Below, piece by piece: positions 4,743 through 58,512 of a stretch of DNA of 64,000 nt. The notes under the pieces were generated by a model, which was not told the DNA's origin, searched no databases, and saw only the letters and a list, made by a program, of their open reading frames with translations. The number at the start of each line of letters is the position of its first letter. The stretch's first letter is position 1. The DNA comes from Kiloniella majae (GTDB lineage Bacteria > Pseudomonadota > Alphaproteobacteria > Kiloniellales > Kiloniellaceae). Made by a program: the position numbers and the translations under genes. Location of the stretch: assembly GCF_002118315.1 (NCBI RefSeq), contig NZ_MTSZ01000011.1:1-64000 (forward strand). Reading direction: 5' to 3'.

Positions 4743-5000
4743 ATTTTTAAAGCCCTCTCCGTCATGCCTGCCTCTGCAGCACACAATCGTTGATGCCAAT
4801 ACCACCCATCACCCACAATAGTAGCATGATGGAACTCTGACGTTGATCAATATCACCCGTCACTCAACATATGTGTATCAGATTAATCCTATACAAGGAT
4901 TTAGTATTCAGATTCTTGAGGGATACACCACTGAAATGGAACGATTTTTAAACCTGCGCCCAACAAATAGATTCGATTATCTTTGGTAAATAATTTTGGC

Positions 5001-5028
5001 AAAAAAAACCCTGCCCGAAGGCAGGGTT
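5001..5028 (-). terminator. Rho-independent terminator of the minus-strand small RNA
   Basis: On the minus strand a 9-bp stem (5028-5020 with 5015-5007) is closed by a UUCG tetraloop on a C-G pair and followed by eight T residues. The T run exists only for leftward transcription, so it ends a minus-strand transcript that begins between here and the MOSC gene. Confidence 0.85.
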
Positions 5029-5165
5029 GGGAAATCCCATAGTTACGTCAGGAGAGATGAGTACATACCCAGAAGGAGCACAAACCACGAAGTATTGGCG
5101 ATATTCGCCGAAGAGCCTGTGTTGTCTTCCTCGGTAGGAACTACAAGAAGGAAGCTAGCCTATGA
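5001..5165 (-). ncRNA. Putative Fur-repressed small RNA, about 165 nt
   Basis: The interval between a promoter-like -10 box overlapped upstream by a Fur box and a strong rho-independent terminator contains no minus-strand ORF of credible length. Local hairpins can be drawn, such as GGCGA/TCGCC near 5098-5110 and GTAG/CTAC near 5135-5145. Two CTCCT-type segments, near 5047-5054 and 5074-5078, could pair with Shine-Dalgarno sequences of target mRNAs. The architecture matches RyhB/PrrF-type iron-responsive sRNAs, but no sequence family is recognised. A 5' leader of clpB is unlikely because the terminator intervenes. No expression evidence is available. Confidence 0.6.
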
Positions 5166-5171
5166 AAAAAC

Positions 5172-5196
5172 ATTATGCAACTGAAAATCATTCTCA
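5172..5196 (-). promoter_or_regulatory. sRNA promoter with overlapping Fur box
   Basis: On the minus strand the 7-1-7 element TGAGAATGATTTTCA (5196-5182) differs from TGATAATnATTATCA at only two positions. CATAAT (5177-5172) is a good -10 hexamer just downstream, which places the Fur box between -10 and -35. The -35 box is weak. The element shares GAATGATTTTCAGT with the box at the hemP promoter (58486-58500). Confidence 0.65.
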
Positions 5197-5364
5197 TTTA
5201 GAAATTTTTTTATTTATTTTCAGTTAGTAAATCTACAGTCAAATTTCCAAACACGCCTATAACGAGTAATAATTGGCTCAAAATCTAGGGATTTTCCTAT
5301 AAATTTATTAAAGGCTTGAAAAATAATTCGCAGCCAACACAATAGAAAAAAATTGGGGAAAGAA

Positions 5365-6120
5365 ATGTCTGCGTTCATAGAATCTATCTATCGTTATCCT
5401 GTTAAAGGTCTAAGTGCTGAAAAACTGGATCAAGTAAGTGTCGAAAAGGACGCTATTTTTCCCTACGACAGACGATTCGCCATTGCACATGGGTCCACTG
5501 AGTTTCCGAATGGTCCTACTTGGCTTTCAAAAAAGCACTTTGTAATGCTGGCAAAGAATCCTAAACTCGCTCAGCTGACATCAGAGTTTGACGAAGATAC
5601 AGAAACACTCACTCTTTTGCGCAATGATAAAAGAGTATCCAGAGGAAAATTAACCGATTTAACCGGACGGATGCTGTTAGAGCAGTTTTTGGCAAGCTTC
5701 CTTGAAGCAGATGTTCGTGGCGCCCCGAAGATCGTGGAAAACAATGCCACAGCCTTCACAGATATTCCTGATTTACAGATCTCTCTTATTAACACCGAAA
5801 GCGTTAAAGACCTTGAACGTGTTGTGAGAAATCCTGTGGACCCCATGCGGTTTAGAGGAAATCTATACCTTGAAGGACTTAAAGCATGGGAAGAAAATAA
5901 CTGGATTGGAAAAGAGATTAAAGTCGGAGACATCACGCTAGAGATCAAATCTCCAATCGGACGCTGTTCGGCCACGAACGTAAATCTGGATACTGCAGAT
6001 GTTGATCTTAACATTCCCAAAAGCCTGCAATCCGGATTTGGCCACAGAAATATGGGTGTCTACGCCAGCGTGAAAACTGATGGTCTTATCCAAAAAAATG
6101 CACCAGTGACGATTGACTAA
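5365..6120 (+). CDS. MOSC domain-containing protein
   Basis: Molybdenum-cofactor sulfurase C-terminal family protein. The N-terminal beta-barrel (1-95, opening SAFIESIYRYPVKGLS) is followed by a MOSC domain (about 110-251) with the conserved cysteine C201 in IGRCSATNVN, the residue thought to carry persulfide sulfur. Such proteins act in sulfur transfer to molybdoenzymes or in reduction of N-hydroxylated compounds (mARC-like YcbX/YiiM); the substrate cannot be told here. The ATG at 5365 follows GGGGAAAG and matches the family N terminus; a TTG twelve bases earlier overlaps that ribosome-binding site. The gene is isolated. A molybdopterin oxidoreductase lies at 35 kb in this window, with no direct link. 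Confidence 0.85.
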   Translation: MSAFIESIYRYPVKGLSAEKLDQVSVEKDAIFPYDRRFAIAHGSTEFPNGPTWLSKKHFVMLAKNPKLAQLTSEFDEDTETLTLLRNDKRVSRGKLTDLTGRMLLEQFLASFLEADVRGAPKIVENNATAFTDIPDLQISLINTESVKDLERVVRNPVDPMRFRGNLYLEGLKAWEENNWIGKEIKVGDITLEIKSPIGRCSATNVNLDTADVDLNIPKSLQSGFGHRNMGVYASVKTDGLIQKNAPVTID

Positions 6121-11928: not shown

Positions 11929-13062
11929 CTAGTGACCCATCTGCTGTGGTGTTTCGCCCCGGGCAATTGCGTCTTCAATTTCCGCAGCTTTGGTTTCGAT
12001 CATGCCCACCAAGTGGTCCACAATACTTTGATCTTTGAGACGATGATCGGGCATACCAGCAACATACACCTGATGCGTTCCCTTGCCACCACCAGTCAAA
12101 CCAATATCAGTCATGGTCGCTTCACCGGGACCATTCACCACACAGCCAATAACAGAAACAGTCATCGGTGTGGTAATATGGCTTAATCTTTCTTCCAAGA
12201 CGGAAACAGTACTAATCACATCAAATTGTTGGCGGGCGCAAGACGGGCAGGAAATGACATTTACGCCCCTGTGTCTCAGTCCAAGGGATTTCAGAATATC
12301 AAATCCGACCTTAATTTCTTCAACGGGGTCAGCGGAAAGTGATACGCGCAATGTATCCCCGATACCCGACCATAGAAGATTTCCCATCCCAATAGATGAT
12401 TTAATCGTCCCCGTACGCAGACCACCAGCTTCTGTAACGCCAATGTGCAGCGGATAGTCACACACCTCACCCAATTGCATATAGGCAGCAACGGCCATGA
12501 AGACATCTGATGCTTTACAAGAAATTTTAAATTCTCTGAAATCAAGATCTTCCAGAATCCTGATATGACCAAGAGCAGATTCCACCATTGCATCCGGACA
12601 GGGTTCACCGAAACGATCCAGCAAATGTTTTTCCAAAGATCCGGCATTCACCCCGATGCGCATGGAACAGCCGTGATCTTTTGCGGCATTGACCACTTCC
12701 AGCACTTTCTCGCGCTTACCAATGTTTCCCGGATTAATCCGTAGACAGGCTGCACCGGATTCAGCGGCTTCAATGGCACGCTTGTAATGGAAGTGAATGT
12801 CCGCAACGATGGGTACAGAGACTTCTTTGACGATTTCTTTCAAGGCGCGGGACGATTCTTCATCTGGACAAGACACACGAACGATATCCGCCCCGGCTTC
12901 TTCCATCGCATGAATCTGTTCGACAGTCGCTTTCACGTCTGTCGTCAAGGTGTTCGTCATTGATTGAACAGTAATGGGGGCATCTCCACCAACGGGAACA
13001 TTACCAACCATTACCTGTCGTGATTTTCGGCGAACAATGTCTCGCCAAGGACGTATACTCAT
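11929..13062 (-). CDS. ispG: 4-hydroxy-3-methylbut-2-enyl diphosphate synthase IspG
   Basis: [4Fe-4S] enzyme of the MEP isoprenoid pathway converting MEcPP to HMBPP. An N-terminal TIM barrel (1-250) is followed by the cluster domain with C272 and C275 (SCPSCARQ), C307 (GCVVNGPGE) and the ligand-position E314. The 377-residue length fits the bacterial type without the plant-like insert. The start at 13062 ([14 protein letters not shown]) matches the family; the in-frame extension to 13113 does not. It lies between the rodZ-like gene and hisS, a conserved alphaproteobacterial order. Confidence 0.96.
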
Positions 13063-13171
13063 CAAACTCTCTCTGTGCCCTAAAAAAGCAAAGGAAACAT
13101 GCGCTTTCTTCAATGATAATTCAAGCTGAAACCCCTAATGTGATGCTACCCATTCAAACCTGCAATAGTGA

Positions 13172-13245: not shown

Positions 13246-14481
13246 TTATTCTGCAGTAATTGACTCCAGAAGCCCTTCTTCCGAGAGAATAATATCTCTT
13301 CGAACAGCCCCAAGAGCCCCAAGTTTTGGCAAATCATTACCATTCAATTTAATTGTAATGCCGCCGGCATTACCCGTGGCCATAACCAAATCATCACGGT
13401 TAGGCACGTTATAAACAGATCCAGCCCTGAGAACCCGGCTAAAAATTGCTTCACCAGATCCATTCACAATATGCATCCATGTATCCCGCTCAGCATGGAT
13501 AGAGATCGGCGAAGCCTCGACTTCATCGCCAAAAACTTCCGGTTCTGGCGGTGGTGGAGGCGTTACCGCTGCAACAGATGTTTCAGTCAGAGCATTATCC
13601 GTTTCGGATACAGCCTCCGTCGGTGAGTCTTCAGCTGTTAAATCCCCATTCGCGATCTCAGAAACGGCAGCATCACCCTGCTCAGCATTCCCTGTCAGAG
13701 AAACTTCCGGAACCTCGGGGACCTCTTGCGATTGTGTCTCTGCAGTGACAACCTCAGGAATTATAGCCGTCGATATTGTTTCAGTAGTTTCTTGTGCACC
13801 CTGACTTTGTACATCAGAAACTACATTCGTAACCGCCTCTTCAGTATTCGAAATCTCAGCTTCCTGTGAGTTATCGGTTGTTGCACTGTCAACAGAAGTT
13901 ACACTGTTTTCAACAGCCGCATCCGTTTCTGCAACATTCTCTAAAGGCGCCGGGACAACAGCATCCCCACCTGTTGCTGATACTTCTTCAACTGTCGTAT
14001 CTACTTTCTTTTCAGACAGAAAAGGAACCCATTCAGAAATATCCACATCGAAACGGGATATCGCGGTCCATCCGCCATAAGCGACACCAAGCAGAACAAT
14101 AGATGTCAAAAGAATAGCCAACCCAGGAGTCTTGCTTTCTGGGACCGGCGTTGGAAAAACCAACTGCTTCCGATCACCATAATTTTGAACTTCCTGTTTG
14201 AACTGTCGAACAATTTCGTCTTTATCAAGGTTCAGATAACCCGCATAGGTTCGCACAAAACCATATGCATAGGTATCTCCCGGTAAGCTGGCGAAATCGC
14301 CACGCTCAATCGCTTCGAGAAACACATATCTGATACGAAGAATATTCGCGACAGAACGTAAATCCTGTCCACGTTTTTCCCGGCCGGTACGAAGGATTTC
14401 CGCAACGGTTATAGTGGGTTCATTATGTCCCGAGGTGTCTTCCCCGGATGTATTTTCCCGTGATTCCGGCATCGCTTCCAC
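13246..14481 (-). CDS. RodZ-like helix-turn-helix / DUF4115 membrane protein
   Basis: Resembles the cytoskeletal adaptor RodZ, which links MreB to the elongation machinery. An N-terminal Xre-type HTH (about 20-95, ILRTGREKRGQDLRSVANIL... with the family signature GDTYAYGFVRTYA) faces the cytoplasm. One TM segment (about 120-142, LAILLTSIVLLGVAYGG) follows, then about 170 residues of acidic Ser/Thr/Glu/Val linker and a C-terminal DUF4115 domain (about 330-410) in the periplasm. Start choice: the GTG at 14481 has GGAGG five bases upstream; the ATG at 14472 lacks good spacing. It lies upstream of ispG, the usual alphaproteobacterial place. The linker is longer than in E. coli RodZ. Confidence 0.85.
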   Translation of the reverse strand: MEAMPESRENTSGEDTSGHNEPTITVAEILRTGREKRGQDLRSVANILRIRYVFLEAIERGDFASLPGDTYAYGFVRTYAGYLNLDKDEIVRQFKQEVQNYGDRKQLVFPTPVPESKTPGLAILLTSIVLLGVAYGGWTAISRFDVDISEWVPFLSEKKVDTTVEEVSATGGDAVVPAPLENVAETDAAVENSVTSVDSATTDNSQEAEISNTEEAVTNVVSDVQSQGAQETTETISTAIIPEVVTAETQSQEVPEVPEVSLTGNAEQGDAAVSEIANGDLTAEDSPTEAVSETDNALTETSVAAVTPPPPPEPEVFGDEVEASPISIHAERDTWMHIVNGSGEAIFSRVLRAGSVYNVPNRDDLVMATGNAGGITIKLNGNDLPKLGALGAVRRDIILSEEGLLESITAE

Positions 14482-58394: not shown

Positions 58395-58434
58395 AACCCC
58401 GCAGCTTACATCAAGCTTGTGGGGTTATTTTTTT
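58395..58434 (+). terminator. Rho-independent terminator after cobT
   Basis: AACCCC (58395-58400) pairs with GGGGTT (58421-58426), with an inner AGCTT/AAGCT stem and a small internal loop, followed by seven T. Its T run touches the first Fur box of the heme operon. Confidence 0.85.
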
Positions 58435-58448
58435 AAGAATCATTCGCA
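58434..58448. promoter_or_regulatory. Fur box 1 of the heme-uptake promoter
   Basis: TAAGAATCATTCGCA is a 7-1-7 match to TGATAATnATTATCA, eight bases upstream of the -35 hexamer. It shares GCGAATGATT (inverted) with box 2. Confidence 0.7.
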
Positions 58449-58455
58449 AACACAC

Positions 58456-58484
58456 TTGACACTTATCAATCACAGAACTATTAG
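58456..58484 (+). promoter_or_regulatory. Sigma-70 promoter of the heme-uptake operon
   Basis: TTGACA (58456-58461), 17 bases, TATTAG (58479-58484). Transcription would begin near 58491, inside Fur box 2 and about 20 bases before the first hemP ATG. Confidence 0.8.
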
Positions 58485-58485
58485 T

Positions 58486-58500
58486 TGCGAATGATTTTCA
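58486..58500. promoter_or_regulatory. Fur box 2 of the heme-uptake promoter
   Basis: TGCGAATGATTTTCA overlaps the expected transcription start. Fourteen bases (GAATGATTTTCAGT, 58488 onward) recur in the Fur box upstream of the minus-strand small RNA at 5182-5196. Confidence 0.8.
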
Positions 58501-58512
58501 GTATCGGTTTTA

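Follow-up and report, generated by a model that had tools for sequence, protein, structure and literature searches.

A candidate Fur-repressed, iron-sparing small RNA in an alphaproteobacterium, with a core conserved in three families

INTRODUCTION

Does the intergenic region between clpB and a MOSC-domain gene encode a small RNA that is repressed by Fur and spares iron, and would such an RNA have counterparts among known regulators? Fur-controlled iron-sparing RNAs are known in the gamma- and betaproteobacteria and in the Firmicutes. We found no established Fur-controlled iron-sparing small RNA (sRNA) of an alphaproteobacterium in the open-access literature. Indeed, in Caulobacter a Fur box was sought and was absent from every iron-induced sRNA (PMC6120978), some positive effects of Fur were ascribed to "an unidentified iron-responsive sRNA" (PMC3751524), and the lack of a Fur-controlled iron-sparing sRNA was termed intriguing (PMC11005374). 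An initial annotation of the stretch of DNA analyzed here, a 64-kb window, had proposed a Fur-repressed, RyhB-like RNA on the minus strand upstream of clpB. We examined this locus and its homologues by comparative sequence analysis.

RESULTS

Architecture of the locus and position of the promoter. The features of the locus are collected in Table 1. Most of the elements described in the initial annotation were found again. The 15-mer TGAGAATGATTTTCA of the Fur box is present at positions 5182 to 5196 of the minus strand, the UUCG-capped terminator is a 9-pair hairpin followed by eight T, and CU-rich segments occur in the predicted transcript. No minus-strand open reading frame (ORF) of at least 50 amino acids lies in the interval, and no frame is kept between homologues. 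At the sequence level, the locus has the form of a short noncoding RNA with an intrinsic terminator of its own, and the predicted RNA carries a U-rich terminator tail.

Table 1. Features of the candidate sRNA locus and related sites in the window
Feature	Position	Strand	Basis
Fur operator AAATGAGAATGATTTTCAGTTGCA	5176-5199	minus	Kept in the genus, with equivalent boxes upstream of 18/18 other-genus homologues
-35 element TTGCAT	5175-5180	minus	Overlaps the end of the Fur operator; TTGC-N17/18-TA in 27/27 homologues
-10 element TAGCTT (genus form TA[AG]nnT)	5152-5157	minus	Conserved promoter geometry
Predicted small RNA, about 140 nt	5001-5144	minus	Promoter geometry and covariance-model matches
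5' hairpin UUCCU-ACCG-AGGAA	5127-5140	minus	Near-invariant within the genus
Variable middle, with indels	5081-5123	minus	42-56% identical in distant genus members
Core seed AUCUCUCCUGA, complementary to UCAGGAGAGAU	5048-5058	minus	Identical in 27/27 homologues, three families
Small hairpin UGGG-AUUU-CCCA, ahead of terminator	5028-5039	minus	Alignment and fold
Intrinsic terminator, stem ACCCUGCC-UUCG-GGCAGGGU, then T8	5001-5028	minus	9-pair UUCG-capped hairpin
MOSC-domain gene, divergent neighbor	5365-6120	plus	Pfam MOSC, 7.2e-17
Two related Fur-type boxes (58431, 58483) before hemP/heme-uptake genes	58431-58506	plus	Weight matrix

The promoter had to be placed anew. The CATAAT initially taken as the -10 box is not conserved, since relatives read CATCAA or CACATT, and it was dropped as a promoter element. 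The conserved arrangement is TTGCAT, a spacer of 17 nt, and TAGCTT, and the exact N17 plus TAnnnT geometry occurred in 21 of 27 homologues versus about 0.5 (0.48) expected when the sequence following the box was shuffled. The start is therefore predicted near position 5144, about 7 nt past the -10 element, and not at 5165 as first proposed, giving an RNA of about 140 nt. The outer arm (CUUCC) of a longer 5' stem drifts without compensation because it lies upstream of this predicted start. Five of the nine genus members also have a AAAATAAATAAA-type A+T tract upstream of the Fur box, at a distance of about 10 bp (positions 5205 to 5224 in the window), which may be an UP element.

Constraint within the genus and the relationship to clpB. 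A blastn screen of 190 relatives recovered the locus in all nine genomes of the same genus; the window genome, G000, served as the reference for identities. Three segments hardly varied among the nine: the Fur box (operator identity, 96 to 100%), a 5' block, and a 3' block of about 72 nt. Both flanks and the middle had diverged. In the three species most distant from G000 (G008, G003, and G002), identity along the locus was 58 to 65% at the start of the MOSC gene, 35 to 42% in the 60 nt upstream, 96 to 100% across the Fur box and -35 element, 90 to 100% in the 5' hairpin, 42 to 51% in the middle, 93 to 95% in the 3' core, 97% in the terminator hairpins, 19 to 27% in the 100 nt downstream of the terminator, and 74 to 82% at the start of the clpB coding region. 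Constraint on the operator and on two RNA-like islands thus far exceeds that on either neighboring gene. The initial annotation had held that divergence of the interval between conserved flanks would speak against an RNA; the opposite was observed, since in the more distant species the adjoining noncoding flanks were 19 to 56% identical and the operator, core, terminator, and 5' hairpin 90 to 100%. The loop-closing U-A pair of the 5' hairpin is U-G in G002 and G003, and the hairpin is not kept outside the genus. Compensatory changes were few; one, U-A to C-G, was seen in the terminator stem of homologues from group f1g2 and family f4.

The transcript would run on the same strand as clpB and about 250 nt upstream of it, which would suit a leader or attenuator belonging to clpB instead of an independent RNA. 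Against this stand the strong terminator between the two, the poor conservation (19 to 56%) directly after that terminator, the conserved sigma32-like promoter and leader that clpB itself possesses (CTTGTAT...CCCATATAT in relatives), and several homologues in which no clpB was found within the locus of about 3 kb. We consider a clpB leader extremely improbable. The leader of clpB, at positions 4743 to 4899 of the minus strand, is itself strongly conserved (69 to 94%) and includes two stretches that hardly vary, GTGGGTGATGG and GCATCAACG.

Homologues in other genera and families. The covariance search proposed as a check in the initial annotation was run on the relatives with two models, R1 built from the whole RNA and R2 from its 3' part. 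Matches spanned positions 5001 to 5154 in all nine genus genomes. R1 matched weakly in four genomes, two from a second genus of the same family and two from a different family, and each of these loci has the core as well as a Fur-like box in the corresponding position. R2 brought the number of homologues outside the genus to 18 (8 in f1g2, 3 in f2g6, 3 in f4g8, 2 in f4g14, and 2 in f4g19), giving 27 in all from three families, f1 (two genera), f2, and f4. All 27 have the core AUCUCUCCUGA, a terminator, and an upstream Fur-type operator overlapping a TTGC-N17/18-TA promoter, and the order of Fur box, promoter, core, and terminator is the same in the three families. In the 18 other-genus homologues, the terminator adjoins the core and the box lies 92 to 152 nt upstream. 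A MOSC gene stands beside the sRNA in 26 of 27 cases, namely, 9/9 genus genomes and 17/18 other homologues, and clpB lies on the other side in several of the latter. The locus is therefore taken to be a single ancestral one.

The RNA was not found by covariance search in families f3 and f6 to f8, and the single match in f5 was a chance terminator. Among the matches inspected from the sampled other orders of the class, a search of limited sensitivity, no further member was recognized; the R2 matches inspected outside the order were terminators without core or box, as were L124, L127, L179, L182, and L183. A DNA pattern for the genus-type core, searched at class level, returned matches from the genus itself and chance matches only. 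The MOSC-clpB pair also occurs in Bradyrhizobium, Microvirga, and Pseudolabrys (L025, L027, L031, L033, and L057), and the RNA core is absent there. These three genera belong to a group that is reported to use other regulators instead of Fur.

The alignment of homologues also bears on a possible small-protein gene, or an RNA that additionally encodes a short peptide, under Fur. Many homologues outside the genus (L165 to L181) have an AUG, GUG, or UUG 4 to 8 nt after the -10 element, near the predicted 5' end, which opens about five codons of the MLFAA, MFGAA, or LFA.. kind and resembles a leaderless start; in addition, one frame of the core gives ...DLS-stop. Frame and length vary between homologues, however, with all three frames represented relative to the core, the genus itself has UUG UAG at the candidate start, and the core is fixed at third-codon positions too. 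A coding function appears very unlikely on this evidence.

The operator and the identity of the repressor. In all 19 homologues tested, a box with at least 13 of 18 matches to the consensus TGATAATGATTTGCAATT (13 to 17 in the 18 other-genus homologues) was present at the equivalent place; its score was equaled by 0 to 1 of 1,000 shuffles in 18 of them and by 7 of 1,000 in one. The footprint of Magnetospirillum gryphiswaldense Fur (MgFur) on feoAB1 is TTAATCGCAACTCATTCGCAATTGC (PMC4506495). This operator is matched by the boxes of the other genera in as many as 20 of 25 positions; a single box departs from the common register, and in most genomes few or no shuffles scored as high. Weak matches were obtained for the box of the genus itself (15/25, with 32 of 300 shuffles as good) and for that of f4g19.

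A weight matrix was built from the 18 other-genus sRNA boxes, with the genus itself left out, and used to scan both strands of the 64-kb window. The site at 5176 ranked first, at 30.2 bits, followed by the hemP promoter at 20.7 bits, and the second hemP box ranked fourth. This agrees with the earlier remark that 14 bases of the Fur site recur at a heme promoter: 14 of the 15 box bases are found at positions 58486 to 58500, before hemP, as the single-base variant TGCGAATGATTTTCA, and a weaker box lies at 58434 to 58448. The genes behind these boxes are hemP (Pfam, 1.6e-16), a TonB receptor, a TonB-like gene, HemS, and a periplasmic-binding-protein gene. The hemP boxes are about 50 bp apart, the first just downstream of a terminator-like hairpin that follows a VWA/CobT-like gene. 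The third-ranking site (13322 to 13345, minus strand, 14.2 bits) is about 200 nt upstream of ispG/gcpE, which encodes an Fe-S enzyme (11929 to 13113, minus strand).

The overlap of the box with the -35 element fits repression, and the operator-over-promoter arrangement of the Fur-repressed iron-sparing sRNA class is present in the sequence of this locus. Several homologue boxes, those with TTGCAATT, are not of the classical GATAAT type, and a real RNA repressed by another FUR-family or iron regulator, such as Irr or Mur, might account for them. The same type of box was footprinted with MgFur (PMC4506495) and also precedes hemP here, and Fur is reported to act as the global iron regulator of the Rhodospirillales and other basal alphaproteobacteria (PMC3751524), so that a repressor other than Fur seems very unlikely.

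The core and its candidate targets. Of the stretches that all 27 RNAs share without change, AUCUCUCCUGA is the longest. It is mostly unpaired in the predicted folds of the RNAs from G000, G003, G048, and G032 and less so in those from G008, G017, and G023. The bases preceding it are GUACUC in the window and GCAUCG or GCAUUG in most relatives. With the latter, the complement of the extended core in other genera reads AGGAGAGAUC(A/G)AUG, that is, a Shine-Dalgarno sequence, a spacer, and a start codon. Since the core is complementary to a Shine-Dalgarno sequence, genes with AGGAGAGA 2 to 8 nt before an ATG were listed in five genomes that carry the RNA (G000, G008, G003, G017, and G048). This pattern gave 22 to 31 matches per genome versus 2 to 9 for the reversed pattern and was thus 3 to 15 times commoner. 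The control words AAGGAGGA and AAGGAAAG, which share at most AGGAG with the complement of the core, were processed alike.

Iron proteins accounted for 20 of 85 ORFs with AGGAGAGA versus 1 of 47 with the two control words (Fisher p 0.0006), and for 14 of 74 versus 1 of 44 when counted by gene family (p 0.006), iron status having been assigned non-blind in both counts, from Pfam/NCBIfam with knowledge of each gene's set and by eye for some controls and orthologous duplicates. The one possible iron protein among the controls was a PAPS reductase. The candidates included NuoG, a 4Fe-4S electron-transfer subunit, GlcF, a cytochrome c, and GltD in G000; NuoG, a cytochrome c, GltD, GltB, and SdhB in G008; a cytochrome c, a 2Fe-2S molybdenum-hydroxylase subunit, GltB, and SdhB in G003; AcnA, CcoG, and a ferritin-like protein in G017; and an Fe-type superoxide dismutase, a diheme peroxidase, and a 2Fe-2S subunit in G048. 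Complex I NuoC (G048) and a flavin subunit of the CO-dehydrogenase type (G008) were left out of the iron count. The initial annotation had named target prediction against Fe-S and heme protein messages as a check, and its suggestion that CU-rich segments could mask ribosome-binding sites is supported by this enrichment.

Predicted duplexes in the start regions had energies of -19 to -30 kcal/mol; prediction over the whole RNA returned uninformative long duplexes. The usual target of such RNAs, sdhC, was dropped from consideration, its Shine-Dalgarno sequence having no complementarity to the RNA, and the Shine-Dalgarno sequence of sdhB in G000 is AGGAGAAA, one base off. The target lists differ between genera.

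About three quarters of the AGGAGAGA genes are not iron proteins, and no iron target is common to all genera tested. Perfect 10-nt seed matches beside start codons, tried first and abandoned as too strict, were few and mostly in non-iron genes. These observations would fit a Fur-repressed RNA that acts mainly on messages other than those of iron proteins, its core serving as a general anti-Shine-Dalgarno sequence on transporter or envelope messages in the manner of RusT in Caulobacter. The enrichment of iron proteins over the controls, which includes the classic Fe-SOD, AcnA, SdhB, and complex I, argues against this reading. We judge this reading, a real Fur-controlled RNA with other main targets, to be unlikely, and it is the live alternative.

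DISCUSSION

The best-supported reading of the locus, in line with the initial proposal of a Fur-repressed RyhB-like RNA, is a Fur-repressed, iron-sparing, trans-acting sRNA at positions 5144 to 5001 of the minus strand, analogous to RyhB and PrrF by function and not by descent. We hold this to be probable, given a conserved operator, core, and terminator and complementary Shine-Dalgarno sequences enriched in iron proteins. What the genome sequences show is how the gene is built and conserved, its synteny, the Fur-type operator, the complementarity of the core, and the enrichment among candidate targets; transcription, Fur binding, base pairing, repression, and help from Hfq are inferred.

When iron is plentiful, Fe-Fur bound at the operator would cover the -35 element and block transcription. 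When iron is low, a stand-alone RNA would be made that stops at its own terminator. The core AUCUCUCCUGA and the bases preceding it could then pair with the Shine-Dalgarno sequence and, in relatives, with the start codon, keeping ribosomes off the messages of dispensable iron-sulfur, heme, and iron enzymes and so sparing iron. The proposed targets are NuoG, GltD, GlcF, and cytochrome c in the window genome and GltB, SdhB, AcnA, CcoG, Fe-SOD, and diheme peroxidase in relatives. More tentatively, with slightly less than an even chance of being right, we suggest that this is an independently evolved RNA whose core complements an idealized translation start and has been frozen across three families, its targets being rewired as mRNAs gain or lose a AGGAGAGA Shine-Dalgarno sequence.

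Judged by its sequence, the candidate constitutes a new RNA family. Its presumed function is of a known kind, one that had been missing from this lineage. With operator, promoter, seed, and candidate targets all specified, the question is now testable; if the reading is correct, it would represent another independent origin of the same iron-sparing circuit.

The expectation that the RNA would match no recognized family was borne out. Neither the window nor any of 10 homologue loci matched an Rfam family at the gathering threshold, and membership in RyhB, PrrF, or NrrF is not indicated by sequence. Among weak matches at E values up to 5, none came from RyhB, PrrF, NrrF, or other iron-sRNA families; those to a betaproteobacterial toxic sRNA, anti-hemB, and the rnk leader were below the gathering threshold and were taken as terminator similarity.

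RyhB of Escherichia coli, PrrF of Pseudomonas, NrrF of Neisseria, HrrF of Haemophilus, and BrrF of Burkholderia are Fur-regulated iron sRNAs. The candidate resembles them in having a Fur box over the promoter, a short intergenic RNA with its own terminator, and predicted pairing with ribosome-binding sites, for example, those of Fe-SOD, aconitase, succinate dehydrogenase, and complex I; it differs in its core, in the lack of an Rfam match, and in its alphaproteobacterial host. FsrA of Bacillus and IsrR of Staphylococcus use C-rich seeds. Like them, the candidate would be a Fur-controlled RNA of independent origin in an iron-sparing response (PMC9410917 for IsrR), whereas those RNAs are Gram-positive and the core here is UCUCUCCU. 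Closer in taxonomy are the iron- or Fur-responsive RNAs of the alphaproteobacterium Caulobacter, R0117, R0088, and the CC0681-CC0682 region, of which R0117, unlike the candidate, is about 1 kb long (PMC6120978, PMC3751524). RusT of Caulobacter is likewise an alphaproteobacterial iron-starvation sRNA, controlled by NtrYX, without a recognizable Fur box, and directed at many outer-membrane transporters (PMC11005374). In contrast to the NtrX promoter of RusT, which lacks a Fur box, the promoter described here carries a Fur-type box.
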